Shown here piece by piece: positions 13,682 through 64,000 of a stretch of DNA of 64,000 nt (positions within the stretch are counted from its first letter, which is position 1; the number at the start of each line of letters is the position of its first letter). The stretch lies in the NCBI RefSeq assembly GCF_032854445.1, contig NC_088306.1:24399764-24463763 (forward strand), in the 5' to 3' direction. The notes under the pieces are model-generated. The model made no database searches, was not told the DNA's origin, and saw nothing but the letters and a program-made list of their open reading frames with translations. A program made the translations under genes and the position numbers. Origin of the DNA: Liolophura sinensis (Eukaryota > Mollusca > Polyplacophora > Chitonida > Chitonidae).

Positions 13682-13901
13682 AACCCTTCAAAATTACCTC
13701 TTTCACATAGTCATAATTGGAAGCAGTCTCTACACTTAACTGAGTGTAAATTTCCCTGGCCTTTCCAATTAGCACACTCTGTAATAACATAGTCCAGAAC
13801 TCTTTAGGCCACTTCAAACTATTTGCAATTTTCTCAAAATGCAGAAAATATTTATCCACCTCTTTTTCCTGAAAGGATGGAACTAACCGAATGTATTTGG
13901 T
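13674..13901 (-). pseudogene. Gypsy gag N-terminal fragment
   Basis: Encodes a gag segment beginning near TKYIRLVPSF, with EKEVDKYFLHFEKIA and GKAREIYTQLS, then a stop just where the long frame begins in another phase. The reading should continue into PEAYRQKFR, so a small deletion has shifted the frame. Sequence upstream of TKYIRL is not gag-like and matches the 53-bp minisatellite instead, so the element is truncated here and its 5' LTR is missing. Confidence 0.8.
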
Positions 13902-17498: not shown

Positions 17499-18789
17499 AA
17501 TATTCTCTAACACGAATGCGTTCTTGATTCTTATGTTTCATTGTTTATATTTTCTAACACAAATGCGTTCTTGATTCTTATGTTTCATTGTTTGTATATT
17601 CTAACACGAAGGCGTTCTTGATTCTTATGTTTCATTGTTTGTATACTCTAACACGAATGCGTTCTTGATTCTTATGTTTCGTTGTTTGTATATTCTAACA
17701 CGAATGCGTTCTTGATTCTTATGTTTCATTGTTTGTATATTCTAACACGAGTGCGTTCTTGATTCTTATGTTTCATTGTTTGTCTTCTTTAACACGAATG
17801 CGTTCTTGATTCTTATATTTCGTTGTTTGTATATTTTAACACGAATGCGTTCTTGATTCTTATGTTTCATTGTTTGTATACTCCAACACGAATGCGTTCT
17901 TGATTCTTATGTTTCATTGTTTGTATATTCTAACACGAATACGTTCTTGATTCTTATGTTTCATTGTTTGTATATTCTAACACGAATGCGTTCTTGATTC
18001 TTATGTTTCATTGTTTGTATATTCTAACACGAATGCGTTCTTGATTCTTATGTTTCGTTGTTTGTATATTCTAACACGAATGCGTTCTTGATTCTTATGT
18101 TTCGTTGTTTGTATATTCTAACACGAATGCGTTCTTGATTCTTATGTTTCGTTGTTTGTATATTCTAACACGAATGCGTTCTTGATTCTTATGTTTCGTT
18201 GTTTGTATATTCTAACACGAATGCGTTCTTGATTCTTATGTTTCGTTGTTTGTATATTCTAACACGAATGCGTTCTTGATTCTTATCTTTCGTTGTTTGT
18301 ATATTCTAACACGAATGCGTTCTTGATTCTTATGTTTCGTTGTTTGTATATTCTAACACGAATGCGTTCTTGATTCTTATGTTTCATTGTTTGTATACTC
18401 TAACACGAATGCGTTCTTGATTCTTATGTTTCATTGTTTGTATACTCTAACACGAATGCGTTCTTGATTCTTATGTTTCGTTGTTTGTATATTCTAACAC
18501 GGATGCGTTCTTGATTCTTATGTTTCGTTGTTTGTATATTCTAACACGAATGCGTTCCTGATACTTATGTTTCGTTGTTTGTATACTCTAACACGAATGC
18601 GTTCTTGATTCTTATGTTTCATTGTTTGTATATTCTAACACGAATGCGTTCTTGATTCTTATGTTTCATTGTTTGTATACTCCAACACAAATGCGTTTTT
18701 GATTCTTATGTTTCGTTGTTTGTATATTCTAACACGAATGCGTTCTTGATTCTTATGTTTCATTCTTTCTATACTCTAACAGAAATGCG
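17499..18789 (+). repeat. 47-bp minisatellite, about 27 units
   Basis: Units contain TAACACGAATGCGTTCTTGA, TTCTTATGTTTC and (A/G)TTGTTTGTATA. Successive GCGTTC positions at 17518 and 17565 give the 47-bp period, and the array ends in degenerate units near 18780. ATTG and GTTG variants form separate runs, which points to local duplication of unit blocks. Non-coding. Confidence 0.97.
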
Positions 18790-20190
18790 TATTTAAAGGA
18801 AACAAGTTCATATTGGGACTGTTATTGTGTTGGATGCAGTTTATTATGGTAAATCATTCCTGTGCGGACATATTGAAGGGAGCATTTGACTTTTCAATCT
18901 AAAAATAGGCTCAGTTTGCCCATACATATATGTCTGCATTCCGATTACAAGCTTATTTGTGTTACGGAGAGGCTAGAGAGTAAGACTGGACATGGAATTC
19001 ACCTTATAAGACATTACGCTGATAGAAGACAGAATTTTCCATTTATCTACTAACTCTTTGGGATAAACACTATTCTTAAAGGTATACAGGTAAATCGGTG
19101 TAATAGCTGCGTGGGATTTTCGTAAGGAGCATAACTCGGTTTACTCCTATTTAATTAAAATTAAGGCCCGGTACCGGCCATATATGCAAGTTAGTATCAA
19201 ATATTAGATCCCTTGGCGAAATGAAATTTCGCCAGTCGCCATTTAAGAGATGAAACGAAAATTGAATTCCCACGATTGTATGTGTTTAATTATTTACACA
19301 GTGTAATTGCCATTTAATACAAGGGATATGGACTCTATTCCGACAAATATGGTGAACAAGATAATGCGATACACCCTCATAACATTGGTGTTTAAAGTAG
19401 AATACATGGACTTCATCGCTAATCGATTACAAGGGAAGAGTTTGTGACTCGCAGAGATTGAAGACAAGAATTCGCCACTGTGCCTTGCGTACCACTGATT
19501 GTCATCTAAATGCCAGTGTTATCAGTCACTTGAGAAATTCACGAGGAACTGTGAATTTACTTGTTTCTGGGGACAGTCTAGTGAATGAGACTCCGTGAGA
19601 TTGGACCGGAATTGTTTCTTCAGTATTCTCCTTAAAAACTATACATGCAGTTTATTAATGTTTGCATTGGTTGGTATACTGTATATTTGTTGTACTATTT
19701 AGTTCAGATTATTCAATTATTTGAACTGAATTTATCTAAGTGTGTTGGTGTTTCTTGTTTTGTGTGAGGTTTATCGCCGTCTCATCGATGAATAGGCCAT
19801 TTCATTACAGTTTTCCTCTCTGATAGCGATCTACAGCTGCTGCTGTAGTCTTTTGCTAAGCCCGCTGTATGTTGTATAGTACAGTGTATATATGTAAATA
19901 TATATATATATCGATGTATATATCGATGAAGGTCATTGAGAAGCCATGGTGTTGGACCAAGCATCGTGATAACATGCTTTATTGACGGAAGAGATGCCGT
20001 CAAAGAAGTTTTTATGTTTTTTTTCTTCATGTTATTGAGATATGGCAAGCATATCTTCCTCAAATGACAATCCGAGCTCAAAAGAAGGTTTCTTTGTGAG
20101 CAAGAATCGTCAGTCAGTGGGATATGAAGTATACTGAAACCACAAGTCATTGCCTTTATAACAAGTACGACTTTGTAGTAAAGCCAGCAT
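18790..20190. other. No gene recognised
   Basis: A 138-codon minus-strand frame (19782-20198) has no family similarity. Mostly AT-rich unique-looking DNA. Confidence 0.4.
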
Positions 20191-26107: not shown

Positions 26108-27290
26108 TGACACTTTCATCCCCCCCTCCCCCATTTCTCCAGCACGAAAGAAGTCTATCTATTTTCAAATTCAAATCTAATTTTAATTTCATAACAACTG
26201 TAAAGAAGACAAGTGTCAGCATCCTTGAATACTCGGTCTCTTCTTCTACCACATACATATTGCACATCGTCCTATTATTCTAGTCTACTTACTTGGAACA
26301 GGCAGAAGTATACAGCCACACATATAGCTTAACATGCCTCTGGCATTGTAAACATCCGTCCTGCTACAAGGAGGCACATTTAACGATGTCCTCCCACGGC
26401 AAACTTTGTTCTTTCGCAACGCTAGCTGCCTTTGACTAATGAAATCGCGCAGGTGTATGTAAAATAACTGCCCAGTATTTTTAGTGTCATATGTCCTTTT
26501 TCGGCCAGTGGATGTTTTACCGTGTACATTTCTCGCTTTTATCACAACTGTTACGTTAACGCATGGGTGACGGAAATCGGGAAAGACCCATTGGGAAAGC
26601 CACCACAAATAGTTACAAACCTGGCAACCGTCCAGACAATATGGTCGACAATGATTCAGCAAGAGCTGGATTTGAACACGAGCCACAGTTTTGCTGAAAG
26701 GTTTGTCATTTCCCAGCAAATTTCCCAGCAAGATTCGTCAATGGAGGGTCCCGGAACCACGGAGAGGGAATTAATTAATGTTGTGCTATACTTCATGCCA
26801 CTTCGCGATAAGAACAATTACGCGGATGTTTGTCATAGCGATCATAGCGATCATAGCGGATTGTAAACTCTGATAAGCAGAGACAAAGCGAAGGAACGGC
26901 GTCCTCTGTTGATCAGTACCTGATAACCCGCAAAATATTACACCACAATGTGATAACACAGGTTGACATCAGCTTACGCTGTACGTTGCCCTTACGATAA
27001 ACTATTATAACCTGCTAACATCTATGGTAGAATATACACACAGTCTTCAACATCTCATAGTAATGGACAAAGGCTTGAGTGGAAATTTAGTTTACATTGT
27101 ACCGATGAACCTTTGCCTGTGACCTGTGACATTTGTTCCGTTTACCCCGGCTAATTTGCATGTAAATGACCGAGATAATATTTCATTCACAGCATTAGTA
27201 ATGAGAACTCCATACATACATTTATATCTATAACTTAGAGGCATACATAGCTGGAGAGACAATCCCATTGCCAGAAAAACGGTCAACAAG
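26108..27290. other. Upstream region of the Frizzled-domain gene
   Basis: A 148-codon minus-strand frame (26285-26731) and an overlapping plus-strand frame have no recognisable domain. No TATA box is evident near the start codon, and the promoter cannot be placed from sequence alone. Confidence 0.35.
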
Positions 27291-27714
27291 ATGGATGCTA
27301 AATACTGGGGCCTCGTGATATTTTACACCACGGCCGTGGCTGCAATCACCAGTAAAGAGCTAAGACAATGCGAGAAAATAACGGAAGCGATGTGTACCGA
27401 AAACCTGCCATATAACATGACTGCCTATCCGAACATGCTTGGTTATCCAACTCAGATAAACAGCGGTATGAATCGCGGAGTTCTTTACCGTCTGTTGCAG
27501 CACGGTTGCAGCGCACATCTACGACATTTTGCATGTTTAGTTTACGTTCCTCCTTGTTCTGGAATGAGAGCATGCAGAAGCCTTTGCAAAAAAGTGCGAG
27601 ACGACTGTGCGCCTGCGCTGGAAAAATTCGGTAATGACTGGTTTGACGATTTTCGCTGTGATGTGAGATTTCCGACCGACCATTGTGTGATGGAAAACGG
27701 CTTAATTAAGGAAG
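27291..27714 (+). CDS. Frizzled-domain protein, exon 1 (signal peptide and CRD 1)
   Basis: The exon starts at an ATG in good context (AACAAGATGG). It encodes a hydrophobic signal peptide (residues about 5-19) followed by a Frizzled-type cysteine-rich domain. Ten cysteines are present (27, 35, 73, 82, 89, 95, 99, 106, 123, 132), the number of the Fz fold. Family hallmarks are YNMTAYPN near 41-48 and C..LCKKVRDDC near 95-106. The frame runs on past 27714, but GAAG/GTGAGT is a strong 5' splice site directly after the domain, so I end the exon there. It ends with one base of a split codon (phase 1). The protein is likely secreted or membrane-anchored. CRDs of this type bind Wnt or related lipidated ligands, but that role is inferred. 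Confidence 0.85.
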
Positions 27715-28904
27715 GTGAGTGTAGAAAAACAGAAATTTTGCTTCCGTCGATTAAATCAGTTAGCAATGTAATGCATATTGTAGTTTGGCAATTAACCAAA
27801 AAGTTAAAAGAAGCAGTTAAGTAAAGTTAAGTATAATGTGCAATATCGAATTTTTAAAATACCGCTATAAAATACTTCTAGCGATAATATTTGATCTGAT
27901 TTTCTCCGCTGCAAATCAGTAAAAGTTACATCTTGCAACATTTCTCACATTTTGGCCAATAGCCTTTCCCGGGCGTAGAATCTCAGTACCATTGTGTACA
28001 TGGCCTTGATATAGCCCGAAAATCATAGTTCTGATTTGTTATTTTGTTAAACCATACATCAAAAAGTTTATTTTGCCTTAGCATTATGTCCAGGGTGGTG
28101 TGTGATTTGTCGTTGGGATCACACAGTCTAGTATAGGCAGGGCTTGCGAGACAGACAGCAAGAACTTATGTAATAAAATTACCTGTTTTATCTGTTTGAC
28201 CTCTTTTACTTGTTGTTTCGGGACCGATAGATCCAGGATCAATCCTTGATCGAGTCACACCTAAGATTTTAAAAGAGGAAGTTGTAACTTCCTCGCTTGG
28301 CGTTCAGAATGGAGGGGATAGTGCAACGACTGGTTGACCCGTATCAGTATAATGGCTCGGGCGGGACGGCTTACTTGCCTTCGGTAAGTCGTCTCAGTGA
28401 AGCAGCACTAAATAAAGAGCAGTGGAAATCCGTCCTACAACAAGGAGGCACATTACACGTACATGCACCCTAAGGATTCCTTCGTCGTCATATGACTAAA
28501 AAATTGTAGAGTACGACGTTAAACCCCAAGCACTCACTCACTCACTCTTTTACTTGTTCGAAGTCTACAGTTGTACAGTTATAGGCTACTCTATAATAAA
28601 TGATGTATGCGCGAATGTTAGCAAGTGTTCAGATCACAGGGCTATACTGACGTCACATTATTCCAACATTAATATGCCATACGAGACAGCTAATGCGATC
28701 AAGTGTATACCGTGGTGCATTACTGAAGTGTCTTGAGTTCGGGTCGTGGCCAACTATTATTTGTATGTCACAAGATGAAAGTTCGTCAGCAACTGGCCAA
28801 ATGTCGTTGGTTTACACCTGGCACTCCGGATTTCGTCTACAGATAACAATGACCACAGTTATACTTTTACTATTATTTGCGAGTTTTTGTTTGCAACCTT
28901 TCAG
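27715..28904 (+). other. Intron of the Frizzled-domain gene
   Basis: It begins GTGAGT and ends TTTGCAACCTTTCAG. It contains a SINE-2 insertion at 28215-28544. I see no further Frizzled exon inside it. Confidence 0.7.
28215..28544 (+). repeat. SINE-2 copy in the intron
   Basis: 5'-truncated SINE-2: GATAGATCCAGGATCAATCC (B-box side of the head), GAGTCACACCTAAGA, TTCCTCGCTTGGCGTTCAG, GACCCGTATCAGTATAATGG, and a CACT-rich tail. It has a perfect 14-bp target-site duplication CTCTTTTACTTGTT (28201-28214 and 28545-28558), so the insertion is fairly young. Confidence 0.9.
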
Positions 28905-39556: not shown

Positions 39557-39932
39557 TATTTAGACATATTTCTTACTGCAAGAAACAACCCCTGTTCAAT
39601 CAAAAGGCCTGGGCAGGCACTTTTGCAATTTTCATATAACATCGGAAGCGATGACAAGAAGTCATCTTGAATGGAGGAGTCAGTATCTTGTTCAGTATAC
39701 AATTTCATGTAATATGACCTTAACACTCAGCAATACCCTCTTGACATTCATGGGATATTGAAGAATCCTTATGATAAAAAATACTTTTGATCACCTTCTC
39801 CCTGTCTCTACCAACTTCTCGTCTAATGAAATATTTCGTTGGTTTTTCTCCCTGATCAAAATGAACAGCTTTAGCACGGATAACAGCCCCCGAATGATTC
39901 GACTTATAAAGGGCATTTAGAGTCTTTTTCAC
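39557..39932 (-). pseudogene. LINE copy B: ORF2 linker fragment
   Basis: Encodes AVIRAKAVHFDQGEKPTKYF and FIRREVGRDREK, then the segment up to GLLIEQGLFLAVRNMSKY. A stop splits the frame near 39720. Gln is encoded (CAG) at the site where copy A has a TAG stop. After NMSKY the reading continues into unrelated sequence. Confidence 0.75.
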
Positions 39933-40915
39933 ATTGTCAATACGCCCACAGTTAATGACTGGACTGGATTATAACATATTAAATTCTTGTTCAAGTACCA
40001 ACAAATCACGTTTTTGTTCGTAGATTTGTTCTTACAGTAATTTCGAATTCTGTCTTTACATTCCCTTTTAAATGTCTCCCATCTGTCTATTAAATCTGCA
40101 TGATCAGTTGTACAGACAGAGAAAATATCATGGAAGACGGATTTAATATTATCAACAAGCTCCGTGTCATTTAACACAGAAGTATTACACTTCCAGTAGA
40201 ACGGCCCCCACGAAATGACATCTTCAAACGAAATATTTAGAAACAAACTCGAATGATCAGAAAAGGACACATGTACAGCATCACACTGGGTTACATACTT
40301 AAACACAGCGTTACGGATATAAAATCTATCCAATCTACTGGCACAATGGCGCCTAGACCACGTGTAGCAATTCTTATTCGGATGCAGTTTCCTAAAAATA
40401 TCACAAATACCAAAATCTCCTTTCAAATTATTAATTTCGTCCACGCCATCATTCCTTCCATTAGTGGCACAACCAACTTTATCTAATTCAATGCTCTCCA
40501 CACAATTAAAATTCCCACCCATAATAACCAGCTCACTGCCCTGCATCACATTATCTAAATTAGAAATAAACTCTTTTCTTTCCTTCGGATTATTAGGGGC
40601 ATATGCACAAACAAGGTTTAAAGTAGTGTTGTTGAGCTCAACTCTAAGGCTTATGTACCGACCGTTAGGGCACCTCTGTACTTTCCGTATAATGCAATCG
40701 ACCGTATACCTAATAATCATTCCAACCACACTACTTCGATTTGACCCATACGCCCACCTTGCATCGCCCGGGATTTGCAAATATTTAGTGTCATTATAGT
40801 TTTGCAAGTGTGTTTCCTGTAAGAATAGTGCATCAATTCCTTAATCAAAAACAAATTGCTTGACATGTTCTTGTTTCAACGGATCCCGTAAACCATTAAC
40901 GTCGAAAGTCGTGAA
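39929..40915 (-). pseudogene. LINE copy B: ORF2 endonuclease
   Basis: Apurinic/apyrimidinic-type endonuclease of a Tx1/L1-like LINE. Seen are ALFLQETHLQNYND (catalytic Glu, preceded by a stop in this copy), VGMIIRYTVDCIIRK, NLVCAYAPNNPKERKEFI, VIMGGNFNCVES (Asp to Asn against GGDFN in copy A), CYTWSRRHCASRLDRFYI and HVSFSDHSSLF (the terminal Asp-His pair). The frame ends in a stop near 39929. Confidence 0.85.
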
Positions 40916-41004
40916 ACGAATTTTATTTACGCTTATTATACAAATAAGTAAAGGTAGAACGTACATACCAATTGTGGAATAATAAGTCCTGATTATGCTA
41001 CAAT

Positions 41005-41945
41005 TCATTTGTCTCTTTTCATTTGCTGACTCACACGAGAAGCAAGCGATTTTATTTTCCTGTATTCCAGAAGCATGATGTTCCGCTCTTGGGATGGAGT
41101 CGGCGTCATACAGTTTGAAGACTGGTCGGTGCTAACACTATCAGGATCAGTAGGAAGGACACTTGACTCGACAGGTGACACCGCAACATTGTCCAAATTA
41201 GCTCGCTTTTCCTTGACTAGTGAACGCACGTCGGGAGCGTGCACGGCAGCCAGTACCACACTCTTCACACACGAGACAGCTGATGACGTTTCATTATCAC
41301 CAACATCCACTTCTTCGGTATTCTTCCGGTCATCCATCTCCTTGCCAGACTCGTTGTCATCGCCGGCGTCATCATCGCCGCTGTCGTCAGCATTTCCATC
41401 GATTTCGTCTTTGTTTTCGTCTTTTGGATCCTGTTCCATGAATCATCATCGTCGCTGACGTCAACATCAACGTCAATCTCAATGTCATCCTGTTTTACAG
41501 CGTCTTCCTTATTATACTGGCGCATAGTCGGTAGGTTCCCCGTAACCTGTGCCACGTACGACATTGCTCTCGCACAACAATCACTGATCGTGTGAAACCC
41601 TGAATTACACATTCTGCATGGAGCTGTACAGTCCTTCCCGATATGGGGATTCTCATGGGGGGAGAATCCCTCGCAATTAGACCAACACAACGCTCTACAC
41701 TCTGCCGCCTTGTGTGATTTTTGGCCGCACTTCCGACATTCATAGGTCTGCCCGGGGTAAGTAAACATCACAATGTCAACACCAAAATTATTAAAATTAG
41801 GCACATAACGAACTTTGTGACACCTAAATCTGTAAATCCTAATACCTATTCGAAGATATGAGAGCTCCGGGTCTAAAACTCTAGGTTTCATCACACCCAG
41901 GCATTCACCATAGAGTTTCAAAGCTGCCTCGACAGTGTTGAACAT
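41005..41945 (-). pseudogene. LINE copy B: ORF1 zinc-knuckle and acidic parts
   Basis: Three CCHC-like knuckles are read near 41765-41560 (CRKCGQKSHKAAEC, then CWSNCEGFSP and CRMCNSGFHTISDC). An Asp/Glu-rich region and a basic tail YRKIKSLASRVSQQMKRDK follow. A frameshift near 41430 separates the knuckles from the acidic tail. Homologous to the ORF1 of copy A. Confidence 0.8.
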
Positions 41946-41948
41946 TTC

Positions 41949-42388
41949 CTACAGTGCCCACTGGGCCCTGATATTCAGATAGGTAGACGACGCTGGCATA
42001 ATAGACCACGTAGTCACATTTATAACAACATTGGATTTACTCACTAGGGCGTTATGCCCAGCCACAGTAGACAGGCTTAAATAAAAAAGTTTCTTTAAAT
42101 AATTCTTCTGAAAACTTATTAGCTCTGTCTTGATATTTAACACACTTGACAGAAAAGGAATAATGTCCTCCTGGACGCCCTAGAAAATACCGGGATGCTT
42201 CGTATAGAAATTGACAAGACAAAGTTCTGCTTGGCCTGTTCACAGGCAAAAAAGACACGGGCTTGGACATACCTTATCAAATGGAGCACACTCCCTTCAC
42301 CAAACAGTAACCACTGGCCAAACTCAAGCTCTGTGGGCTCCCAGTTCACCAAAAAAATCAGTCTCAAAAACAAGCGTTGTTGTTGCAC
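41949..42388 (-). pseudogene. LINE copy B: ORF1 N-terminal part, split frames
   Basis: Three overlapping frames: WEPTELEFGQWLLFGEG with RYVQARVFFAC; then YSFSVKCVKYQDRANKFSEE ending in a stop after CGWA; then STVAGHNALVSKSNVVINVT in a third phase. The switch after KFSEELFKE falls at the same place in copy A. Confidence 0.7.
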
Positions 42389-42514
42389 AAATGTGTAAAC
42401 AGCAAAGAATCACCGACACGTCCGTTTACTTCAGCGTCCATCACTCTCCCTACTTTATTTTTGCACAAAACTTCCATTTTCTGCTTGATTTAAAATTATG
42501 CTTTTATTTATCTC

Positions 42515-42586
42515 AGCCTCCAGTGAGGTATGAACTTGCGACCCCTGGTTTACGTGACTAGTGCTGTACAACTGAGCGATAGAAGC
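42515..42586 (-). pseudogene. tRNA-Thr(CGU) pseudogene
   Basis: 72 bases, same length as the array tRNA-Thr genes, with CGT still in the anticodon position. The anticodon stem (CTAGT/ACCAG) is mispaired, and the D and T arms carry changes (GTTCATACC B box). Downstream spacer matches the array until LINE copy B begins. Confidence 0.85.
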
Positions 42587-42599
42587 AATTTTTGGAAAA

Positions 42600-43142
42600 C
42601 TGTTTACACATCAGATGATTCCACAGCCATTGTAGCCGATTCTGCTTCAGTTCGAGAAGTGCTCCGTGTAGCTGAAAATTATGGAAGTGTATCAGATGTT
42701 AAACTAAATGTAGCAAAAAACACTGTTCTCCCAATTGGTAAATGGAAAGAGGGAGATGTTCCTGATGTGGGGTTTAAAGTTTGTGAAAACACTAAAATAT
42801 GTGGCATCCATTTCGGCAAGGATCACTCCGAACTGAACGGTAATCGGATTTTAAATAAAATGAAGAAAAATGTAACTTCTTGGGACGGCAGATACTTAAC
42901 TTTAAGGGGGAAACCTGTACTTATAAATACGGTTGCTATGTCTGTGTTATGGTTTGCTGCCGAGTGTACCCTATTACCAACAAAATGTTTTACGCAAGGC
43001 ACCCGACTGTTCCTTTGGGACAATAAGCCTGAAAGTATAAAAAGATCGGTGTTGTATAACTTGTATGAAAACGGCGGGTTAAAGATTCAAAATATTGAGT
43101 GCAAAGCTAAGTTCTTACTTATCTCCCACGTTTTAAGACTTA
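42600..43142 (+). pseudogene. Tx1-type LINE, copy C, 5' segment (RT C-terminal half)
   Basis: Begins at the RT active site, where TSDDSTAI stands for FADDTTAI. It continues KLNVAKNTVLPIGKW, KICGIHFG, WDGRYLTLRGKPVLINTVA, RLFLWDNKPESIKR and HVLRLI. The Tc1 element interrupts it at 43142. It lies back to back with copy B across the tRNA-Thr pseudogene. Confidence 0.82.
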
Positions 43143-44074
43143 TAAACTACCGGGCAAAAGAAACGTGTAACTTTTAAATGCAGTTTTTTCTACGGAAAAA
43201 TAACTTGAATAAGTTTTAACGTTTTTGTGCGAATACGTTTGCACATAAGTACCCTGTGTACACGTCACTTTTTAACGAGATTCATTGAAACTGGTGTAAG
43301 ACATCATGAAAAATCGGAAAAACAGAGTTTCGGGCCATGTTGAAAATTCTCGGGTGCTTGTATGGGGCGGAATTTGTGGACAGGTGAGAACGAGATTGGT
43401 CATCATCCAGTTAAACCTGACTGGCCAAAGATACCGAGATAAAATATTGGAACCTGTTGTGGTGCCATTCGTGCATTAACAGCAAAGGGGTATCCTTTTG
43501 CAGCAGGACAATGCACGACCTCATACCGCCAGAGTTGTACTAAATTATCTGGACACCACTGATGTCAACGTACTGCCTTGGCCAGCACGATCTCCAGACA
43601 TGAATCCCTTAGAGCATCTGTGGGATCATCTTGATCGACGTCTGAGACAACGCGTCCCTCCCCCACAAAACAGGCAACAGCTCGAACAGGCTTTATTTGA
43701 GGAGTGGGACAGAATTCCTGATGACGTCATCCGGCGGCTGACGACTTCCATGAGGAGACGTATTTTGGCTTTAATTGATGCAATGGGTGCTCACACACGC
43801 TACCAACGATCTGTCTTATGACATGATAGGACATTAGGTACACCTTTTTAAGGGAGTTCCTTTACTTGCATTTGTGTAATTTTTCAGATTTACCCCTTGC
43901 CTTCTTTACTCGGCCTGACAGCAAGTGTAATATCCATATGGCTTTGAATTTTTGGACAGAACTTGGAAAATGGTTTATTGCAATATAATGCTTATCATGT
44001 TGATACTGTCTGTCTTTCTTTCTCTTTCTTGTGGTGCTGAACAAGGTTATACGTTTCTTTTGCCCGGTAGTTTA
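43143..44074 (+). mobile_element. Tc1-like transposon with perfect terminal repeats
   Basis: The ends are exact inverted repeats: 43141-43166 and 44051-44076 are reverse complements over 26 bases including the TA target duplication (TATAAACTACCGGGCAAAAG...). The element is only 932 bases, against about 1.6 kb for autonomous Tc1 elements. It keeps the C-terminal part of a transposase and is inserted in LINE copy C. Confidence 0.95.
43350..43821 (+). pseudogene. Tc1-like transposase, C-terminal part
   Basis: Reads VLVWGGICGQVRTRLVII, then QRYRDKILEPVVVPFV, one stop (TAA near 43478), then an open frame from 43498: QQDNARPHTARVV with the second catalytic Asp, and SPDMNPLEHLWDHL with the catalytic Glu. 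The DNA-binding N-terminus and the first catalytic Asp are deleted, so this copy cannot move itself. The 108-codon frame ends naturally at TRYQRSVL. Confidence 0.9.
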
Positions 44075-44076
44075 TA

Positions 44077-44390
44077 TGTAACGGAGGCCGAGATATTTTG
44101 CTATCTACTGCCTTGGAATATCTTTAAGACAATTGTGTCCCCAATTTTGTACGCCGAACATTCCTCGCACTGAAACTATTCCCCCGTTCTATCAGCTTGC
44201 TTTAAGGGCGTGGAAAGAATTTATAAGGGACAATCTTTACCGGTGCTTTGTTTTTTGACAAAGTTTATTTATGCGCAGTTAGTGAACCCCATCTGTGAGT
44301 TACCAAATATTATGATAAAGTTCCCAGCATTCTTATCAAAGGCTGTTATACAAGCCTTAGATAAGCTTGTATATTTGTTAAAATAGCATC
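44077..44390 (+). pseudogene. Tx1-type LINE, copy C, 3' segment
   Basis: Continues copy C after the Tc1 insertion: TEAEIFCYLLPW matches AEWKYFAIYWLGLP of copy A, and FYQLALRAWKEFI matches FYRLALIAWREFT. Further downstream the match fades. Confidence 0.7.
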
Positions 44391-44767: not shown

Positions 44768-45297
44768 AGGAGAAGATGGTGAAGATGTTGACGTAGATAG
44801 TGATGATGATGGTGATAGTGGTGATGGTGTTGATGATGATAACGAAGAAATGGGCGCAGATGACAAAACTGAGATTGACGCTAAGAGAGCCGAGGATGAT
44901 CTAGTGGGTGACATGGAGTGTGACTGAGGTACGCCCGTTGTACCTAATGTGACCAAAGAGATGGTGTGAGTAGAGACTTCTCTGGTGCGATAGAAGTCGA
45001 GGCGGAAGTCCACTGCGTGCGATCTCCAGAGCCCGTTTGACAAAAGACAGCAAAACTGGACAATGAAGCGGAGGGGACGTCATTGGCATTATGGAGCACT
45101 CTACCGTCGGATTGCGTAATGCAGGGGGACTCGGATGACATATCTGAGATGATGACACCCACCCCCTCCCAAGGTACTGATAAAATGTTATGAGAGTATC
45201 GGCGCAGGAAATCTTTCGCCTCTCGTTCGAGAGCGCGTAAAGACAATGAATATATTTTATTAGAATATGGACATGGATATGCTCCCAGATGAACAAT

Positions 45298-45925
45298 GAG
45301 TGCATACCTTCATATTTTCTTTATCGGTTTCATGTCTCTCGTATATAACATACGTTTTGACACTTTAAATGTTAATGGCCTGCGTGCTGTTACAAAGCAG
45401 GAGCAGGTACAACGATTGGCAATGTCGTTAGATGTCCTAACGGGCGTTACATAAGTGTTAAAGTGACAATTAATGACACGGCTCTTAATCTGATATGTAT
45501 ATATGCTCCTAATAATCCACAGGATAGGAAAGAATTTATATCTAACTTAGTGTAATGCGTGGGAGTGAATTAGTCATTTTTGGTGGGGATTTTAACTGCG
45601 TTGAAAACATTATATTGGATAGAATTGGGCTTGTAAATAATGTGAGAAATGTTGGTATTAAGGAGAGTAATAGTATTAAATATGATTTTGAGGTGTGTGA
45701 TATTTTTAGGAAGTTTCATCCGGACAAACGGTGCTACAAGAGGCCAGTGCGTTAGTCGGCTTGATAGGTTCTACCTTCCTAATGCTGTTCAGATTTACAT
45801 GTATGTAACCTTTTGTGACGTTAAACATGTCTCCATTTCTGATCATTCTTTGTCCTATTGTTGATGTAAATTTTACGGATGTAATTACTTGGGGTCCGTT
45901 TTATTGAAATGTAACATTTCTGTTT
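45298..45925 (+). pseudogene. LINE copy D: ORF2 endonuclease, deleted
   Basis: Start MSAYLHIFFIGF..., then NIRFDTLNVNGLRAVTKQEQ. A deletion removes the LQETHF block. The frame resumes at CPNGRYISVKV, then ICIYAPNNPQDRKEFI, FGGDFNCVEN, CDIFRKFHPDK and HVSISDHSLS in changing phases. Confidence 0.75.
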
Positions 45926-46007
45926 TCAATGACGATAAACTTGCTGTACAAATAAATGATGTCTCTGTAAGTATTTTTCTGATGGTGACAATTGTAATGC
46001 TACCTTA

Positions 46008-47057
46008 GTGGACGGGTGGGAGGCTTTCAAAAAGGATTGTAAAGATGTAATACGTAATTATTGTTCACAAGTTTCATTAAGGAAAAAGAGCCAGTTGTTG
46101 GATCTACAAGATGAATTGAATGTATTCAAGCCAAACCCTGTTGTAAATAGTGATAAGATTGATAATGTAAAGAAGACTATTAATTGTTTAAATAGAGACA
46201 GACATCCGGGATCGGTTATTAGGGCTAAGGCTGTTTACTTTGATAAGGGGGAAAAGCCTACGAAGTATTTTATTAGCAGGGAAGTGGGGAGGGGGGGGGG
46301 GAAGAAAATGATAAAGGAAATTATTTGTCATGAGAATGAGTCTCAGTCCCATAAATCCCAGCATGAAATTGCTAAATGTATCAGGTTATATTACAAACAA
46401 TTGTACAGTAAGCAGGATACTGATTTTGTGTGTCAAGACGCGTTTCTATTAGAATTACCGAAGTTAAATTATAATTGTGAAGCTCTTTGTGAATGCGCAT
46501 TGACGAAACAAGGGCTCTTGTTTGCTGTAAATAATATGTGTAAATACCGTTCGTCTGGTTGTGATGGCTTACCGGCCGAGTTTTATGTAACGTTCTGGCC
46601 TCTGATTGGCAATGTATTAACTGAAGTTGTCAATTGTTGTTTTCGCTCCGGCAGTTTCAGTCCGTCTCAGCGGAGTGATATTATCACCTTGCTATGTAAG
46701 AACCCCCAATATTGTAGAATACCAGGTGGTAGTGTATTCAACAATTTACATCTTTTACGTAATGTCTATAATTACGTGGAACAGAAAGATTTGAAGGCCT
46801 GCTTTTTAAACTTCGATCAAGAGAAGGCTTTTGGCAGGATTCATTGGCCCTTTTTGTTCAAATGTTTAGAGATGTTTAATTTTAGGCCCGAATTTTGTGC
46901 ATGGGTTAAATTACTGTACACAAATATCTCCAGCAGTGTGATTGTAAATGGACACATAAGTGAACAATTTAGTTTAAATAGAGGAGTCCGCCAGGGGTGT
47001 TCACTATCTCTGCTGTTGTACGTTTTATCGTTAGAGACGTTTGTAATCGGCCCTTAG
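46008..47057 (+). pseudogene. LINE copy D: ORF2 linker and RT, with RT deletion
   Basis: A 349-codon open frame with RAKAVYFDKGEKPTKYFISR, CKYRSSGCDGLPAEFYVTFW, NFDQEKAFGRIHWPFLFK (motif A equivalent, with Asp to Gly against DRVDW of copy A) and NRGVRQGCSLSLLLYVLSLE (motif B). About 35 residues between LLCK and GIPGRS, which hold NWRPISLL in copy A, are deleted in frame. It ends at a stop before the FADD block. Confidence 0.85.
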
Positions 47058-47067
47058 GAAGTCCAGT

Positions 47068-47945
47068 GTGATTAATCGTGTTGCGGTGCCGGGAACAACT
47101 AAGCAGGCTAAGGTTTCTGCCTTTGCGGATGACACTACGGCAATTCTCTCAGAGGAAAGTTCCGTGCAAGAAGTGGTTACTTTGACAGAAAATTACGGCA
47201 GGGCATCTGGGGCAAAACTGAATCTGTCCAAGACCACTGTCCTACCTATTGGAAATTGGGATAGTTCGTTAGTACCTGATTTAGGGTTGAATACTGTTCA
47301 GAATTCCAAAATTTATGGAATATTTTTTTTTTGGAAAAGACCAGGCGGAACTCAACTGTACTCGTGTCTTAAATAAAGTTAAGAAGAATGTAACTTCTTG
47401 GTGTGGAAGATATTTAACTCTTAGGGGGAGGGCTGTACTAATTAGCACTGTCGCACTAGCGGTTATATGGTTCACAGCACAATGTACTTTGTTACCTGCT
47501 AAATGTGTCACTCAATGTACGCAGATAGTATTTAAATTTTTGTGGAATAATAAGCCTGAGAGTTTAAAGGGGGTTGTTGTACATAATAAATTTAAGAGCG
47601 GAGGTTTAAATGTTCATAATGTTGAGTGCAAAACGAAAGCTTTAGCCGTACGGAACAAATTAAAATTAGTTCATGGTACTGAGGCTGATTGGAAATATTT
47701 TGCGATTTAGTGGTTAGGTTTATTTTTAAGGAGTGTTTGTCCTAAAATTGGCCAGAAACAGTGTCCCACACTAAGAACGTAACACACCCTTCTACCAGTT
47801 TGCGATAAATGCTTTTAAGGAATTCTATAGTGGTCAAACGTTACCTTCGGTGATGTACCCTAGTAAAGTTATTTATGATCAGCTTGTCACAAAAGCCTTA
47901 CAGGCGCCATGAGTGATGCTAACATCTCCGCAGTTGAGATGGGGT
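47068..47945 (+). pseudogene. LINE copy D: RT active site and C-terminal domain
   Basis: VSAFADDTTAILSEESSVQE holds the active-site Asp pair. KLNLSKTTVLPIGNW, GRYLTLRGRAVLISTVALAV and KFLWNNKPESLKG follow in shifted frames (a T9 run near 47323-47331 is one cause). Stops occur at 47376, 47710 and beyond. Confidence 0.8.
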
Positions 47946-48006
47946 GTTATTTGGAAAACGGTGTTTCACAAGTTTTTAGATCATAACTTAGTCAATTTCT
48001 GTTTTA

Positions 48007-48270
48007 TTTATATTTTTTTTCGATTGGTGTTTTACGCCGTACTCAAGAATATTTCACCTACGACGGCGACCGCCATTATGGTGGGTGGAAACCGGGCACA
48101 GCCCGGGGAAAACCCACGACCATCCGCAGGTTGCTGGCAGGCCTTCCCACTTACGCCCGGAGAGAAAGCCAGCATGAGCTGGACTTGAACTCACAGCAAC
48201 CGCATTGGTGAGAGGCTCCTGGGTCATTACGCTGCGCTAGCGCGCTAACCGACTGAGCCACTGAGGCCCC
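48007..48270 (-). repeat. SINE-1, full length, inserted in LINE copy D
   Basis: Complete reverse-oriented SINE-1 from the tail (ATTTATATTTTTTTT) to the tRNA-like head (GACTGAGCCACTGAGGCCCC). The target-site duplication is AATTTCTGTTTTA at 47994-48006 against AATTCTGTTTTA at 48271-48282, one base apart. LINE coding resumes after it (KLVHDILSVKE). Confidence 0.92.
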
Positions 48271-48528
48271 AATTCTGTTTTAAACTTGTTCATGATATTT
48301 TGTCCGTCAAAGAAAGACTAGTGAGGCGTAATAGCGCCATACCCCTCGTGCAAGTAGGTGGGAAATTTACAACACCAATCAGAGACAAAAAATAAAGCCT
48401 CGGTGGTTTGGTCCTTTCTCGTATTGAGAATAACGTAAATACCCTCTTGCTATAAAGAATTAAATAAAATTTCTACACTTCCCCGCTTCTACACTTTTTA
48501 GTTTATTAAATTCATTAACTTTTTAGTT

Positions 48529-57600: not shown

Positions 57601-57673
57601 CATCCCCGGCGGGATTCGAACCCGCGGCCTCTGGATTAGAAGTCCAGCGCGCTATCCACTGCGCTACGGGGAC
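57601..57673 (-). tRNA. tRNA-Arg(UCU), copy 7
   Basis: Consensus copy, all stems paired, although its partner tRNA-Thr is broken. Confidence 0.95.
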
Positions 57674-58162: not shown

Positions 58163-58235
58163 TTCTCTATAGCTCAGTGGTAGAGAACTGGTCTCGTAAA
58201 CCAGGGGTCGTAAGTTCGAATCCTCGCTGGAGGCT
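58163..58235 (+). pseudogene. tRNA-Thr(CGU), copy 8, degraded
   Basis: The acceptor reads TTCTCTA, the D stem is broken (GAGA), and one base is inserted in the T region (GTTCGAATCC). The anticodon is kept. This copy borders LINE copy A. Confidence 0.8.
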
Positions 58236-58372
58236 GAAATAAAAAACAAAAAAAAAACATAGTTTTTATATCAAGCAGAAATATGAAGTTTTTGTGAAAA
58301 AGTGAAATTTATGTGGAGATTAAACAAAAAGCACCATAGGGGAGAGTGTGCTAGACGCCGAAGTGAACGGAC

Positions 58373-58741
58373 GTGTCGGTTATTCTCTGCTGTTTACACA
58401 TTTGTGCAACAACAACGCTTGTTTTTGAGACTGATTTTTTGGTGATCTGGGAGCCCACAGAGCTTGAGTTTGGCCAGTGGTTACTGTTTGGTGAAGGGCG
58501 TGTGCCCCGTTGGATCAGGTATGTCCAAGCCCGTGTCGTTTTCGCCTGTAAACAGGCCAAGCAGAACTTTGTCTGTGTCAATCGCTACACGAAGCAGCCC
58601 GGCATTTTCTACGGCTGTCCAGAGGGACTTTATTCCTATTCTGTCAAGTGTGTTAAATATCAAGACAGAGCTAATAAGTTTTCAGAAGAATTATTTAAAG
58701 AAACACTTCTATCTCCGCGTGTCTACAGTGGCTGGGCATAA
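58373..58741 (+). CDS. LINE copy A: ORF1 N-terminal frame
   Basis: A 122-codon frame with WEPTELEFGQWLLFGEG, IRYVQARVVFAC, QNFVCVNRYTKQPG and YSYSVKCVKYQDRANKFSEE, ending in a stop after SPRVYSGWA. These blocks are also present in copy B, so this phase is real protein sequence. The continuation (STVAGHNALVSKS) lies in a different phase, so either a frameshift mutation predates both copies or the two frames are translated separately. It likely belongs to the RNA-binding ORF1 protein of the LINE particle. Confidence 0.65.
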   Translation: MSVILCCLHICATTTLVFETDFLVIWEPTELEFGQWLLFGEGRVPRWIRYVQARVVFACKQAKQNFVCVNRYTKQPGIFYGCPEGLYSYSVKCVKYQDRANKFSEELFKETLLSPRVYSGWA

Positions 58742-59828
58742 TGCCCTAGTGAGTAAATCCAATGTTGTTATAAATGGAACGGCGTGGTCCATTATGCCCG
58801 CGTCGTCAGTTTACCTGAATCTGACGGCCCACTGGGCACCGGATGAAATGTCAGATGACACTATCGAGGCAGCTTTGCAACCCTATGGTGAATGCCTGGG
58901 TGTGACGAAACCCAGATTTTCAGACCCGGAGCTCTCACATGTTCGGACAGGTATTCGGATTTACAGATTTAGGTGTCACAAAGTTCGTTATGTACCAAAT
59001 TTTATTAATTTCGGTGGTGACATTGTTATGTTTACCTACCCCGGGCAAACCTATGAATGTCGGAAGTGTGGCCAAAAATCACACAAGGCGGCAGAGTGTA
59101 GAGCACTGTGGTGTTCTAACTGCGACGGTTTCTCCCCCCATGAGAATCCTCATACAGAGAAGGACTGTACAAATCCATGCCGAATGTGTGACTCAGGGCT
59201 TCATACGGTCAGTGACTGTTGTGCGAGAGCAATGTCGTACGCGGCGCGAGTTAAGGGAAACCTACCGACTATGCGCCAGTATAATAAGGAAGACGCCGTA
59301 AAACAAGATGACATTGATGTTGACGTCAGCGACGATGAAGACCCATTCAACGCACCTGCTATGGAACTGGTTCAAGACAGCGAGGAGAACGAAGACGAAA
59401 TCGACGGGAATGGTGACGACAGCGCCGATGAAGACGTCAGCGACGACAGCGAGTCTGATAAGGAGATGGACGTCCGGAAGAATACTAAGAACACCGAAGA
59501 AGTGGATGTTGGTGATAATGAAACGTCATCAGCTGTCCCAAGGGTGAAGAATGTGCTCGTGGCTGACGTGCACGCTCCCGACGTGCGTTCACCAGTCCCA
59601 GTCGAGGAAAAGCGAGCTAAGTTGGACAATGGCAGTACAACCGAAGAGGCAGCGTCATCTATCCCGCCCAGTTCCCATCCTACTGATTATGATGGTGTTG
59701 ATGCCGATCAGTCGTCAGACTGTATGACGCCGACCCCATCTCAGGAGGGGGACACCATGCTTCTGGAATACAGGAAAAGAAAATCGCTTGCTTCTCGTGC
59801 GAGGCAGCGAATGAAAAGAGACAAATGA
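58705..59828 (+). CDS. LINE copy A: ORF1 main part (zinc knuckles, acidic region)
   Basis: The frame is open from 58464, but recognisable protein starts near 58705 (STVAGHNALVSKSNVVINGT). Next come an RRM-like segment (LTAHWAPDEMSDDTIEAAL with GIRIYRFRCHKVRYVP), YPGQTYECRKCGQKSHKAAEC (CCHC knuckle), CSNCDGFSPHENPH...DC, CRMCDSGLHTVSDC, a long Asp/Glu stretch (DDIDVDVSDDEDPF and on) and a basic end RKRKSLASRARQRMKRDK that could be a nuclear localisation signal. Tx1-clade ORF1 proteins have this layout. They coat the LINE RNA. The frame is intact in this copy. Confidence 0.82.
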
Positions 59829-59855
59829 GTTGTAGCGTAATTAGGACTCTCTTAT

Positions 59856-60710
59856 TTGACCACAATGGGTATGTACGCTCTACCTTTACTTACTTGTATA
59901 ATGAGCTTAAATAATATTCGTTTTGGGACTTTAAACATTAATGGTTTACGGGATCCGTCTAAACAACAACATGTCAAGCAATTTGTTTTCGATAAAGGAA
60001 TTGATGTATTATTCTTACAGGAAACACACTTCGAAAACTATAATGACACTAAATATTTGCAAATCCCGGGCGCTGCAAGGTGGGCGTATGGGTCAAATCG
60101 AAGTTGTGGGGTGGGAATAATTATTAGGTATACGGTAGACTGCTTTATACGGAAAATACAGAGGTGCCCTAACGGTCGCTACATAAGCCTTAGGATTGAG
60201 CTCAACAACACTGCTTTAAACCTTGTTTGTGTATATGCCCCTAATAATCCAAAGGAAAGAAAAGAGTTTATTTCTAATCTAGATAATGTGATGCAGGGCA
60301 GTGAGTTGGTTATTATGGGTGGGGATTTTAATTGTGTTGAGAGCATTGAATTAGATAGAGCTGGCTGTGCCAGTAATGTAAGAAATGATGGAGTGGACGA
60401 AATTAATAATTTGAAAAGAGATTTTGGTATTTGTGATATTTTTAGGAAACTGCATCCGGATAAGAATTGTTACACGTGGTCTAGGCGCCAGTGTGCCAGT
60501 AGATTGGATAGATTTTATATCCCTAACGCTGTGTTTAAGTATGTAACCCAGTGTGATGCTGTACATGTGTCTTTTTCTGATCATTCGTGTTTGTTTTTTG
60601 ATATCTCTTTTGAAGATATCATTTCATGGGGGCCGTTCTACTGGAAGTGTAATACTTCTGTGTTAAATGACACGGAGCTTGTTGATGATATTAAATCCGT
60701 TTATCCATGA
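59856..60710 (+). pseudogene. LINE copy A: ORF2 endonuclease domain
   Basis: A 284-codon frame. The likely start is the Met of MSLNNIRFGTLNINGLRD near 59901. Catalytic blocks of the apurinic/apyrimidinic-type nuclease are complete: NINGL, DVLFLQETHFENY (Glu), VCVYAPNNP, VIMGGDFNCVES (Asp, Asn), WSRRQCASRLDRFYI and HVSFSDHSCLF (Asp-His). It nicks target DNA to prime reverse transcription. The frame ends early because of a shift near 60695. The next frame continues with HDIFSVCTTGHADLIDRWE. Confidence 0.88.
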
Positions 60711-61260
60711 TATTTTCTCTGTCTGTACAACTGGTCATGCAGATCTAATAGACAGATGGGAGACATTTAAAGGGGAATGTAAAGATAGGATTCGGAGTTA
60801 CTGTAAGGAAAAATCTATGAACAAAAAACGTGATTTGTTGGTACTTGAACAAGAATTAAATGCGTTGAAATCTAGTCCAATCATTAACTGTGAGCGTATT
60901 GACAATGTGAAAAAGACTCTAAATGCCCTTTATAAGTCGAATCATGCGGGAGCGGTTATCCGTGCTAAAGCTGTTCATTTTGATCCGGGAGAAAATCCAA
61001 CCAAATATTTTATTAGACGAGAAGTTGGTAGGGGCAGAAAGAAGATGATCAAAAGTATTACTTGTCATAGTGATTCTTCAATATCCCATGAATCTCAGGA
61101 AGGCATTGCTAAGTGCAATGCTAAGTGTATAAGGTCGTATTATATGAAATTGTATACTGAACAAGATACTGACTCCTCCATTCAAGATGAGTTCTTGTCA
61201 TCGCTTCCAATGTTAAATGACGATTGTAAAACTGCCTGCGAAGGCCTTTTGATTGAATAG
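60700..61260 (+). pseudogene. LINE copy A: ORF2 linker, ends at a TAG
   Basis: Continues ORF2 with RWETFKGECKDRIR, AVIRAKAVHFDPGENPTKYF and YYMKLYTEQDTDSSIQDEF. The TAG at 61258-61260 is in frame with the RT that follows. Copies B and D have CAG (Gln) here, so this is a nonsense mutation of copy A. Confidence 0.85.
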
Positions 61261-62664
61261 GAGTTGTTTTTTGCAGTAAAAAATATGTCTAAAAACCGTT
61301 CGCCGGGATGCGACGGTTTGCCAGCAGAGTTTTATGTACAATTTTGGCCACTGTTTTCGGGTGTGTTTACGGATGTAGTTAATCACTGTTTTAACTTGGG
61401 TAGATTAAGTAATTCACAGCGTTCTGGGTTAATCACACTATTATGTAAGGTCCCCGACAATGCCGAAAGCATAAAAAACTGGAGGCCAATTAGCTTACTA
61501 AATGTAGATTATAAGATTGTTTCTAAAGCTTTGTGCAATCGGTTAAAAAATGTGATCGATACAATTGTACTTCAGAATCAGACATGTGGAATACCAGGCC
61601 GAAGTATTTTTGACAACCTTCACTTATTACGAAATACATATGATTATGTTGAACAAAAAGATTTAAAAGGATGCTTTCTTAACTTAGACCAGGAGAAAGC
61701 CTTTGACAGAGTAGACTGGTCATTTTGGTTCAAATGTTTAGAGAAATTTAACTTCGGACCCGACTTTTGTAAGTGGGTGCAATTATTATATACTGACATT
61801 ACAAGTAGTGTTATTGTGAACGGGCACATAACAGAAGAATTTAAACTGAGTCGAGGTGTCCGACAGGGTTGTTCTTTGTCACCATTATTGTATGTTTTGT
61901 CCTTAGAGCCCTTTATAGCCGCCATTAGAAACAATGACGAAATTAACGGTGTACGGTTACCCGGCACAAATGAGGAAACGAGAGTGTCGGCATTTGCAGA
62001 TGATACGACTGCAATTTTATCTGAAGAGAGTTCTGTTCCGCATGTAATTAAACTAGCAGAAAGTTATGGAAAAGCCTCAGGAGCAAAACTCAACTTGTTG
62101 AAAAGCACGGTTCTTCCCATTGGTAACTGGGACGAAACTAACGTACACAGTGGTGGGCTTAACACCACTACAAATTCAAAGATTTGTGGGGTATTTTTTG
62201 GACCAGATCAAACAGAACTCAGTTCTGAGCGTGTTTTAAGTAAGGTAAAGAAACATATATCAGCATGGAATGGAAGATATTTGACCCTACGGGGGAGGTC
62301 TGTCTTAATTAATACAGTTGCTTTAGCTGTCTTATGGTTTTCTGCACAGTGTACTCTGTTGCCACCTAAATGTGTCAATCAATGTTCCCAAACTGTGTTC
62401 AGATTTTTGTGGGATAACAAGCCCGAAAGTTTGAAGAGAGTTGTCGTACATAATAAAATAGGGAATGGAGGTCTAAACGTACATAATATAGATTGTAAAA
62501 TAAAAGCACTTGTTACTCGGCATGTTTTAAAATTAATTCATGGAACAACAGCGGAATGGAAATACTTTGCCATCTATTGGTTGGGTTTACCCCTAAGACA
62601 TGTTTGTCGTGAATTCTGTCGTTCCAATGTCCCACATTCTGAAAACATTCCAGTCTTTTTATAG
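61261..62664 (+). pseudogene. LINE copy A: ORF2 reverse transcriptase
   Basis: A continuous 467-codon frame covering RT: PGCDGLPAEFYVQFWP, NWRPISLLNVDYKIVSKAL, FLNLDQEKAFDRVDWSFWFK (motif A Asp), SRGVRQGCSLSPLLYVLSLE (motif B), SAFADDTTAILSEESS (FADD active site at about 61990-62010) and GRYLTLRGRSVLINTVALAV. All RT motifs look intact. The L1/Tx1-like character comes from the FADD box, GVRQGCSLSPLLY and the missing RNase H. A frameshift near 62640 ends it. Confidence 0.9.
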
Positions 62665-63365
62665 ACTGGCCTTGATCGCCTGGAGAGAATTTACCACAAG
62701 TGTACAGCAACCTGTAACATTGTGTTCAAGCAGGTATATTTATGAATATTTTGTAACAAAAATAGTACATTGTCCAAGAGCAATGGTGTGTCTATGCCGC
62801 ATTTGGACTGGGTTAGAATATGGAAAACTGTTTTTCATCAATTCTTAGATCACAATTTGGTCAACTTCAGTTACAAGTTGGTTCATGACATTTTGCCCGT
62901 TAAGGAAAAACTTCTTAGGAGAAATGTAGCCACCGATGACTTGTGTGTTTTTTGCTCCCTGTCTGAAACTCGGCAACATCTGTTTGTACAATGTAAAATC
63001 GTTCAGGACGTGTTTAATGACTTTAACCGGATATTTATTTTGTTTGCGAACTACCTACCAAATATGGACTCGAAAACATTAATTTACAAGGTATTCAATT
63101 CCACCTTTAACCAGGAAGTTAGAGCGGTGATGGTGTATGTCATATGTGTTCTTCAGTTTAGTATTTGGCGTGCACGCAACGACATAATATTTCAGAAAAA
63201 AACAGGGATTCTGTTGCTATTGTTAAGGCCGCCAAAGGAATAATTAAAACCCGTATTCATGTTGACTTTTTTCGACTAGACAGGCCATCTTTCGAGAAAA
63301 TCTGGTGTATAAACAAAGTCTTCTGTACATTACGGAATGATAAATTAGTGTATTTATTGAAATGA
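62640..63365 (+). pseudogene. LINE copy A: ORF2 C-terminal domain, frameshifted
   Basis: Three frames are needed: FYRLALIAWREFTTSV, then MPHLDWVRIWKTVFHQFLDH with CVFCSLSETRQHLFVQC (a CCHC-like zinc finger typical of LINE C-termini), then SVAIVKAAKGIIKTRIHVDF to the stop at 63365. Frameshifts lie near 62770 and 63205. Confidence 0.8.
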
Positions 63366-63535
63366 GCAGCTAATGTGCAATTGTTCTATTCACAAAGCAG
63401 TCATCTTTTCTGTGATATTTTATTTTAATTAAGACTGCCTTGTGATTTCCAAAGTGTGTGATAGCCGGGTAATGGGAAATCTTGTGTATTTGATGACAAT
63501 CTGGGAATAAATTCAACAATTTTCAAAAAAAAAAA

Positions 63536-64000
63536 TAAATTGGAGACATGGAAAGCGTCATGACCCTCGTGCAAGTGGGTGGAGAATTTACAATACCCAT
63601 TAGAGAAAATAAATACAGCATGAAATCATGCGTCTTTGACTGATAATTTTTGGCAAAGTTGTCAGAGTGGGTTGTGTGTATCGATTTTGTATGGAAATAA
63701 CTGTAGTGTGCAATCTTATATCTTTGTGTTGGGATAAAATGGACCTTGCTGAGATATAAATAAAGTGGAGGAAAAGATCGTAGGCTTGGTCCTTTGTTGT
63801 TTTCAGAATGACGTCAATATCCTTTTCCTATGGAAACTTGAAGAAAATTTTCTACACTTCCCTGCTCACTTTTATTAAGATTGTTAATATTCCAGTCACT
63901 GCCTCCATAGCTCAGTGGAAGAGCACTGGTCTCGTAAACCAGGGGTCGCGAGTTCGAACCTCGCTGGAGGCTGAAATTAAACAAAAACACAATTTTTAAA
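63536..64000. repeat. tRNA array, continuation beyond LINE copy A
   Basis: The spacer restarts at TAAATTGGAGACATGGAAAG and is collinear with 57134 onward. The array continues past the window end. Confidence 0.93.
63901..63972 (+). tRNA. tRNA-Thr(CGU), copy 9
   Basis: Acceptor GCCTCCA/TGGAGGC, all pairs Watson-Crick. The D loop reads AGTGGAA. Anticodon arm and T arm are consensus. Likely functional. Confidence 0.93.

Follow-up and report, generated by a model that had tools for sequence, protein, structure and literature searches.

A LINE family of the chiton Liolophura sinensis found at short range behind tRNA genes of many isotypes

Introduction

In the mollusc Liolophura sinensis, a long interspersed nuclear element (LINE) interrupts an array of transfer RNA (tRNA) genes near the right-hand end of the stretch analysed here, 64,000 nucleotides of contig NC_088306.1 (positions 24,399,764 to 24,463,763; hereafter the window), and the question this locus raises is what the element recognized when it landed there. 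An initial annotation had taken the target to be the 3′ end of tRNA-Arg or the spacer between tRNA-Thr and tRNA-Arg. The other copies in the genome say otherwise, as the 28 that we examined stand behind tRNAs for 12 amino acids, with 0/28 at the 3′ end of tRNA-Arg(TCT). We call the element family A, and the reading that we think likely is that it is an L1-group LINE that inserts within a restricted distance behind tRNA genes, whatever their isotype, and in the orientation of tRNA transcription, probably tethered to RNA polymerase III (Pol III). As read from the genome, family A is associated with tRNA genes, keeps to a range of ~25-165 bp and to a common strand, has no common target sequence, and has moved recently between arrays of different isotypes.

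Junctions of the window copy

The right-hand end of the window is an array in which tRNA-Thr (plus strand) alternates with tRNA-Arg (minus strand). At the 5′ junction, the array ends in CACCAT (58332-58337), one additional A follows (58338), and the LINE head GGGGAGAGTG, which is also the start of aligned copies elsewhere, runs from 58339. With an intact tRNA-Arg at 57601-57673 for comparison, the junction is indeed at tRNA-Arg as first proposed, but it falls 3 bp inside the mature 3′ end and not exactly at it. On the other side, the LINE ends with CAACAATTTTC and 11 A (63525-63535), and the array restarts with TAAATTGGAGAC at 63536, from which 365 bases lead to the tRNA-Thr at 63901-63972, just as had been described. 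Measured from tRNA-Thr on the neighbouring monomer, the 5′ junction is 95 bp and the 3′ junction 288 bp downstream, a loss of ~193 bp of target, in good agreement with an earlier estimate of ~195 bases. The copy is full length with an A-tail, as had been stated, but its ORF2 is interrupted; in other copies, for example L002, L003, and L010, ORF2 is open over ~1169 codons and ORF1 over 435 codons. The junction is read from the assembly, which might be in error at this single point, but 28 other copies concur, and we regard the insertion and its tRNA association as real.

Confinement to tRNA arrays

The genome searched comprises 609 Mb in 632 contigs. Our sample is 29 near-full-length or long copies, ranked by LINE similarity alone with location ignored (L001 is the window copy), and 1500 bp were examined on each side of each copy; truncated, degenerate, and one intron-bearing tRNA were added with blastn and ARAGORN. 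It had been suspected from the window that this is a tRNA-array-targeting lineage, a view to be given up if most other copies lay outside tRNA sequence. We find tRNA genes around 29/29 of these best-scoring copies, all of which lie within tRNA arrays, and the anchoring tRNAs represent 18 anticodons and 13 amino acids. Those for tRNA-Leu account for 10/29 and are spread over five different anticodons. One locus, L006, is a mixed array of 5S ribosomal RNA (rRNA), tRNA-Leu, and tRNA-Tyr genes; at 6821-8135 of that locus, 5S rRNA genes with a 239-bp period stand beside tRNA-Leu and tRNA-Tyr, all in one mixed Pol III array. The 5S rRNA of L006 seems to be of the kind found in molluscs or related animals.

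How much of the genome is of this kind was gauged by B-box counts, tRNA scoring having covered 63 of 76,184 candidates. The B-box pattern GGTTCGANTCC has 1,976 matches in the whole genome versus 495 for the reversed control, an excess of ~1,500, from which we estimate that tRNA surroundings take up roughly 1% of the genome, or still less. Since that excess is small for 609 Mb, finding 29/29 copies in tRNA arrays is beyond chance, and the data support family A as a LINE lineage that is young and restricted to tRNA arrays.

The genome has 42 LINE 5′ ends and 80 3′ ends. The 18 outside the fetched loci were tested by coordinate-only gapped patterns joining the B box to the LINE head, and 8/18 have a same-strand B box from which a tRNA would end 47-209 bp upstream of the LINE; in 6 of these cases the distance is 47-140 bp, where by our own estimate chance would supply ~0.3 for the two nearer distance bins. 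This placement covers those 8; the other 10, along with many truncated copies, are unplaced. Over all copies, the B-box distance bins hold 9 (31-91 bp), 7 (92-152 bp), 3 (153-213 bp), and 1 (214-274 bp).

Distance and strand relative to the preceding tRNA

A same-strand tRNA ends 32-174 bp 5′ of the LINE start in 20/29 loci. Testing a bin of 20-180 bp upstream for the tRNA 3′ end, with random positions and strands within the same joined flanks as the null, gives 2.7 expected inside arrays against the 20 seen (P = 3 × 10−15). The distance from the preceding tRNA to the LINE is tight, with an interquartile range of 77-154 bp, and the distance from the LINE to the next tRNA is loose at 432-957 bp, which identifies the preceding tRNA as the anchor. 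The next downstream tRNA was considered for that role and ruled out, its distances running from 165 to 1303 bp. LINE strand and tRNA strand agree in 20/20 loci whose detected tRNA genes share one direction. The same geometry explains why the window copy landed at the 3′ end of tRNA-Arg, because a convergent tRNA-Thr lies ~100 bp upstream on the LINE strand, which is the usual distance. Within L019, a 179-bp truncated copy starts 30 bp downstream of tRNA-Gly.

These numbers bear on the proposal that insertion is random, with selection sparing only the copies that fell into redundant tRNA arrays. The arrays are redundant and do tolerate insertions, but the proposal predicts uniform positions and strands within arrays, which are not seen, and selection would not favour the 25-165 bp behind a same-strand tRNA within spacers (the P value of 3 × 10−15 again); moreover, very young copies (0.16-0.5% divergence) are already confined. 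We hold this explanation to be very unlikely.

The first-strand nick and target-site changes

The first (bottom-strand) nick is represented by the 3′ junction, and it was placed from the target-site duplications or from an alignment of the 3′ flank with intact repeats nearby. In 23/27 loci, the nick is 25-165 bp downstream of the tRNA, at 38, 76, ~122, 103, 71, ~156, 61, 103, 25, 80, 25, 55, 135, 71, 33, ~70, 78, 68, 79, 56, 154, 64, and 83 bp; the position in L019 is ambiguous among 70, 202, or 223 bp. Target-site duplications are mostly ~8-14 bp, with some of 24-71 bp or longer. Target deletions occur at L001, L017, and L027, so the deletion first noticed in the window is present there but is not typical of the family. 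The A-tails are mostly 8-32 nt, and the truncated copies are L024-L026 plus the fragment in L019.

A common motif sought around the mapped nicks was not found, except for an A at −1, which is partly definitional because the A-tail merges with target A. This matters for the idea of a sequence-specific endonuclease reading one site, either the 3′ end of tRNA-Arg or the spacer between Thr and Arg, in the way of Dewa, Keno, and R1. Single multicopy RNA targets have precedents among Tx1-clade LINEs (PMC3706591; PMC4640811), and the same base has been hit twice in some arrays (Asp +71, His +103, Leu +25). Against it are 18 anticodons with no sequence common to the sites, positions scattered over ~140 bp, and closest relatives that stand behind different tRNAs, making the idea highly improbable.

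Two peculiar junctions were seen. Copies L012 and L014, 16 kb apart, have a common 3′ junction at +25 of tRNA-Leu (AAG) but different 5′ flanks and different nearest relatives, by reason of either a nick hot spot or recombination. L024 has a chimeric junction, its 5′ flank being a tRNA-Gln array and its 3′ flank lying 56 bp behind a tRNA-Leu of another array.

Relationships among the copies

A tree of the 29 sampled copies puts nearest relatives into separate arrays, mostly on separate chromosomes. The closest cases are L011 (tRNA-His) with L018 (tRNA-Ala), 0.16% apart, and L002 (Gly/Met) with L003 (Leu), 0.19% apart; the only sister copies within one array are L020 and L022 (Phe). Because nearest relatives are behind different tRNAs, one lineage moves among tRNA genes that differ in sequence, and recognition of a single tRNA or a single spacer is ruled out. 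At the level of sequence, these pairs establish recent transposition between arrays of different isotypes.

The tree also speaks to whether a few old insertions might have been multiplied through array expansion. Copies are clustered, L020 and L022 are sisters in one array, and L012 and L014 have a common 3′ flank, all of which would suit expansion. It predicts within-array clades with common junctions, however, and those are not seen: apart from L020/L022, copies of the same array are not closest relatives, their junctions and duplications differ, and the nearest relatives are mostly on different chromosomes. We give expansion almost no credence as an account of the family.

A diverged relative in the same arrays

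The window array also contains a decayed copy of a second family, family B (Table 1). Elsewhere in the genome, 14/16 of the other places with family B are ≤60 kb from a family A copy, in a zone covering 0.64% of the genome (P ~2 × 10−29). An unrelated LINE-like sequence, used as a control and a small one, is near family A at 0/7 loci. The strand of family B, which was placed at the level of arrays, is that of family A and of the tRNAs where those run one way. Since family B is in the same arrays, the tRNA-array habit probably predates the separation of families A and B.

Inside the decayed family B copy there is a SINE-like sequence (short interspersed nuclear element; window 48010-48270), which we take to resemble the SINEs common in molluscs. 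The decayed region also holds an apparent Tc1/mariner transposase remnant, judged by eye, at window 43320-43860.

How the element may find its sites

The dictyostelid element TRE5-A offers a guide, since its ORF1p binds TFIIIB and the B box is needed (PMC5911963), and by analogy with it we infer that family A is tethered to the Pol III transcription complex. An RNA-protein particle would be tethered to some feature common to all tRNA genes, most likely that complex (TFIIIC, TFIIIB, or the polymerase), and the endonuclease would then nick the tRNA template strand downstream of the gene. The A-tail would prime at the nick for target-primed reverse transcription. The second-strand cut would usually come ~8-14 bp further on, and sometimes much further on or upstream, which would leave the long duplications or the deletions.

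The main rival to tethering is that insertion is steered by the stalling of replication forks at tRNA genes, or by R-loops or open chromatin behind them, with no specific contact to Pol III. tRNA genes are fork barriers and nucleosome-free regions, and fork geometry could account for both the 25-165 bp spread and the strand bias. The control LINE, though from few loci, is absent from these arrays, and the strand agreement would need forks always to meet the tRNA gene from one and the same side with respect to its transcription. Hence, we consider steering by forks or chromatin unlikely, while still a serious competitor.

Several observations pull against a Pol III tether acting at a set distance. 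Four of the 27 nicks are outside the range, at 288 bp (L001, the window copy), 216 bp (L002), −48 bp (L006), and −43 bp (L023), the last two falling within a tRNA-Leu gene; the LINE of L006 is also ~120-130 bp downstream of a 5S gene. The 5′ flanks of L013, L014, L019, L024, and L025 fit no simple scheme. The bases nicked more than once (the Asp, His, and Leu positions given above) suggest an added influence of local sequence or chromatin. Finally, the contact with the Pol III machinery is argued from geometry.

Classification and comparison with known elements

The closest solved relative of ORF2 is human L1 ORF2p (E = 2 × 10−87), with R2 at E = 1 × 10−18. ORF2 combines an apurinic-like endonuclease (APE) with a reverse transcriptase, the arrangement of L1-group APE elements lacking long terminal repeats (LTRs), and the marks of target-primed reverse transcription are there in the A-tail, the target-site duplications, and some 5′ truncation. 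Family A is supported as an L1-group LINE, the class assignment going to the L1 group only. Elements of the Tx1 clade commonly, though not obligatorily, insert into a single specific sequence, which family A does not do, given the 18 anticodons and the lack of a common site. ORF1 of the window copy has two CX2CX4HX4C clusters plus one longer variant. Pfam has no match to ORF1, and its AlphaFold model is unusable with a mean predicted local distance difference test (pLDDT) score of 35.

The element that family A most resembles is Dictyostelium TRE3, which lands 40-150 bp behind many tRNA genes and points the same way as they do (PMC5911963, PMC5006619). Both are L1-type LINEs with two ORFs, APE, reverse transcriptase, zinc finger, and A-tail. 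The distances of family A are comparable (LINE start 32-174 bp in 20/29, nick 25-165 bp in 23/27) and involve many isotypes, and it runs with the tRNA in all 20 one-direction loci. It differs in that the host is an animal with tRNA genes in large tandem arrays and in that ORF1 carries Cys/His knuckles. By analogy, family A works like TRE3, a likeness of behaviour in which we claim no common descent of the targeting.

Other systems share parts of this pattern. TRE5, NLTR-A, and NLTR-B of dictyostelids and Ty1 and Ty3 of yeast are also placed at Pol III genes by distance, via host factors where studied, but they are upstream of the tRNA, TRE5 is in opposite orientation, and the Ty elements use integrase. 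Skipper-2 of dictyostelids is downstream of tRNA genes but is an unrelated LTR retrotransposon with integrase. Dada DNA transposons are restricted to tRNA and small nuclear RNA genes in animals and some protists, but they use one exact site within the target gene and a DDE transposase (PMC3706591). Dewa of zebrafish, a Tx1-clade member, is likewise an animal APE LINE linked to tRNA genes; taken by its description there as targeting the tRNA-Leu spacer (PMC3706591), it differs from family A, whose anchors cover 13 amino acids with no common site. A 2018 review knows insertion downstream of tRNA genes from dictyostelids only, and in the open-licence literature we found no animal LINE with distance-based tRNA targeting.

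Animal target-specific LINEs are known as readers of one DNA sequence, whereas family A is placed by its distance and direction relative to a whole class of genes, a rule that parallels social amoebae and, with other machinery, yeast. We lean, by a little, toward the view that a long-lived animal LINE lineage (at least 2 families, ~31% diverged) evolved on its own the ability to recognize the Pol III complex, placing its copies downstream of tRNA genes, and perhaps of 5S rRNA genes, regardless of sequence, and that it is the first animal counterpart of TRE3. If so, elements of different kingdoms would have converged on the Pol III machinery as a safe place to land, and there would be an animal system for asking which LINE protein reads the Pol III complex; attempts to place DNA in redundant sites might also start from it.

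Features of the window

Table 1. Family A, family B, and tRNA features in the 64,000-nucleotide window
Feature	Position	Strand	Evidence
Family A LINE, full length, 11-A tail, ORF2 interrupted	58339..63535	+	sequence, Pfam, genome search
ORF1, 435 codons counted from first ATG, three Cys/His clusters	58521..59828	+	motifs read in sequence
ORF2 5′ part, apurinic-like endonuclease (Exo_endo_phos, PF03372), frame break after	59841..60710	+	ORFs, Pfam
ORF2 middle, reverse transcriptase (RVT_1, PF00078); stop codon before, frame break after	61261..62664	+	Pfam
ORF2 3′ part, zinc-binding domain (zf-RVT, PF13966)	62746..63243	+	Pfam
tRNA-Thr (CGT), same strand as LINE, 3′ end 102 bp 5′ of LINE start	58163..58235	+	
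tRNA-Arg remnant, final 3 bp; rest of gene deleted at insertion	58335..58337	-	
Array resumed beyond ~193 bp missing target; 3′ junction 288 bp downstream of tRNA-Thr	63536..63900	+	
Older family A copy, 87% identical, 3′ half missing	39559..42448	-	
Degenerate tRNA-Thr, same strand, 66 bp upstream of 5′ end of older copy	42515..42586	-	
Family B, decayed, ~67-69% DNA identity to family A, inside same array	45002..48339	+	
Further family B fragments	42612-43143 and 44090-44223		

A variant of the LINE 3′ end, TTGGGAATAAACTCAACAATTTTC, is present in 21 copies on one strand, mostly ~2.4 kb apart, at C1:65152157-65204002 of the genome (G000), where a tandem array contains a LINE tail. In the window itself, there is an LTR-retrotransposon remnant at 10548-13687 (minus strand) with a SCAN domain, an integrase zinc-binding domain, and an integrase core. 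Minisatellites are found at 5858-7032 (53-bp × 22) and 17506-18790 (47-bp × 27), and an Fz domain, in keeping with an animal host, is encoded at 27234-27821.

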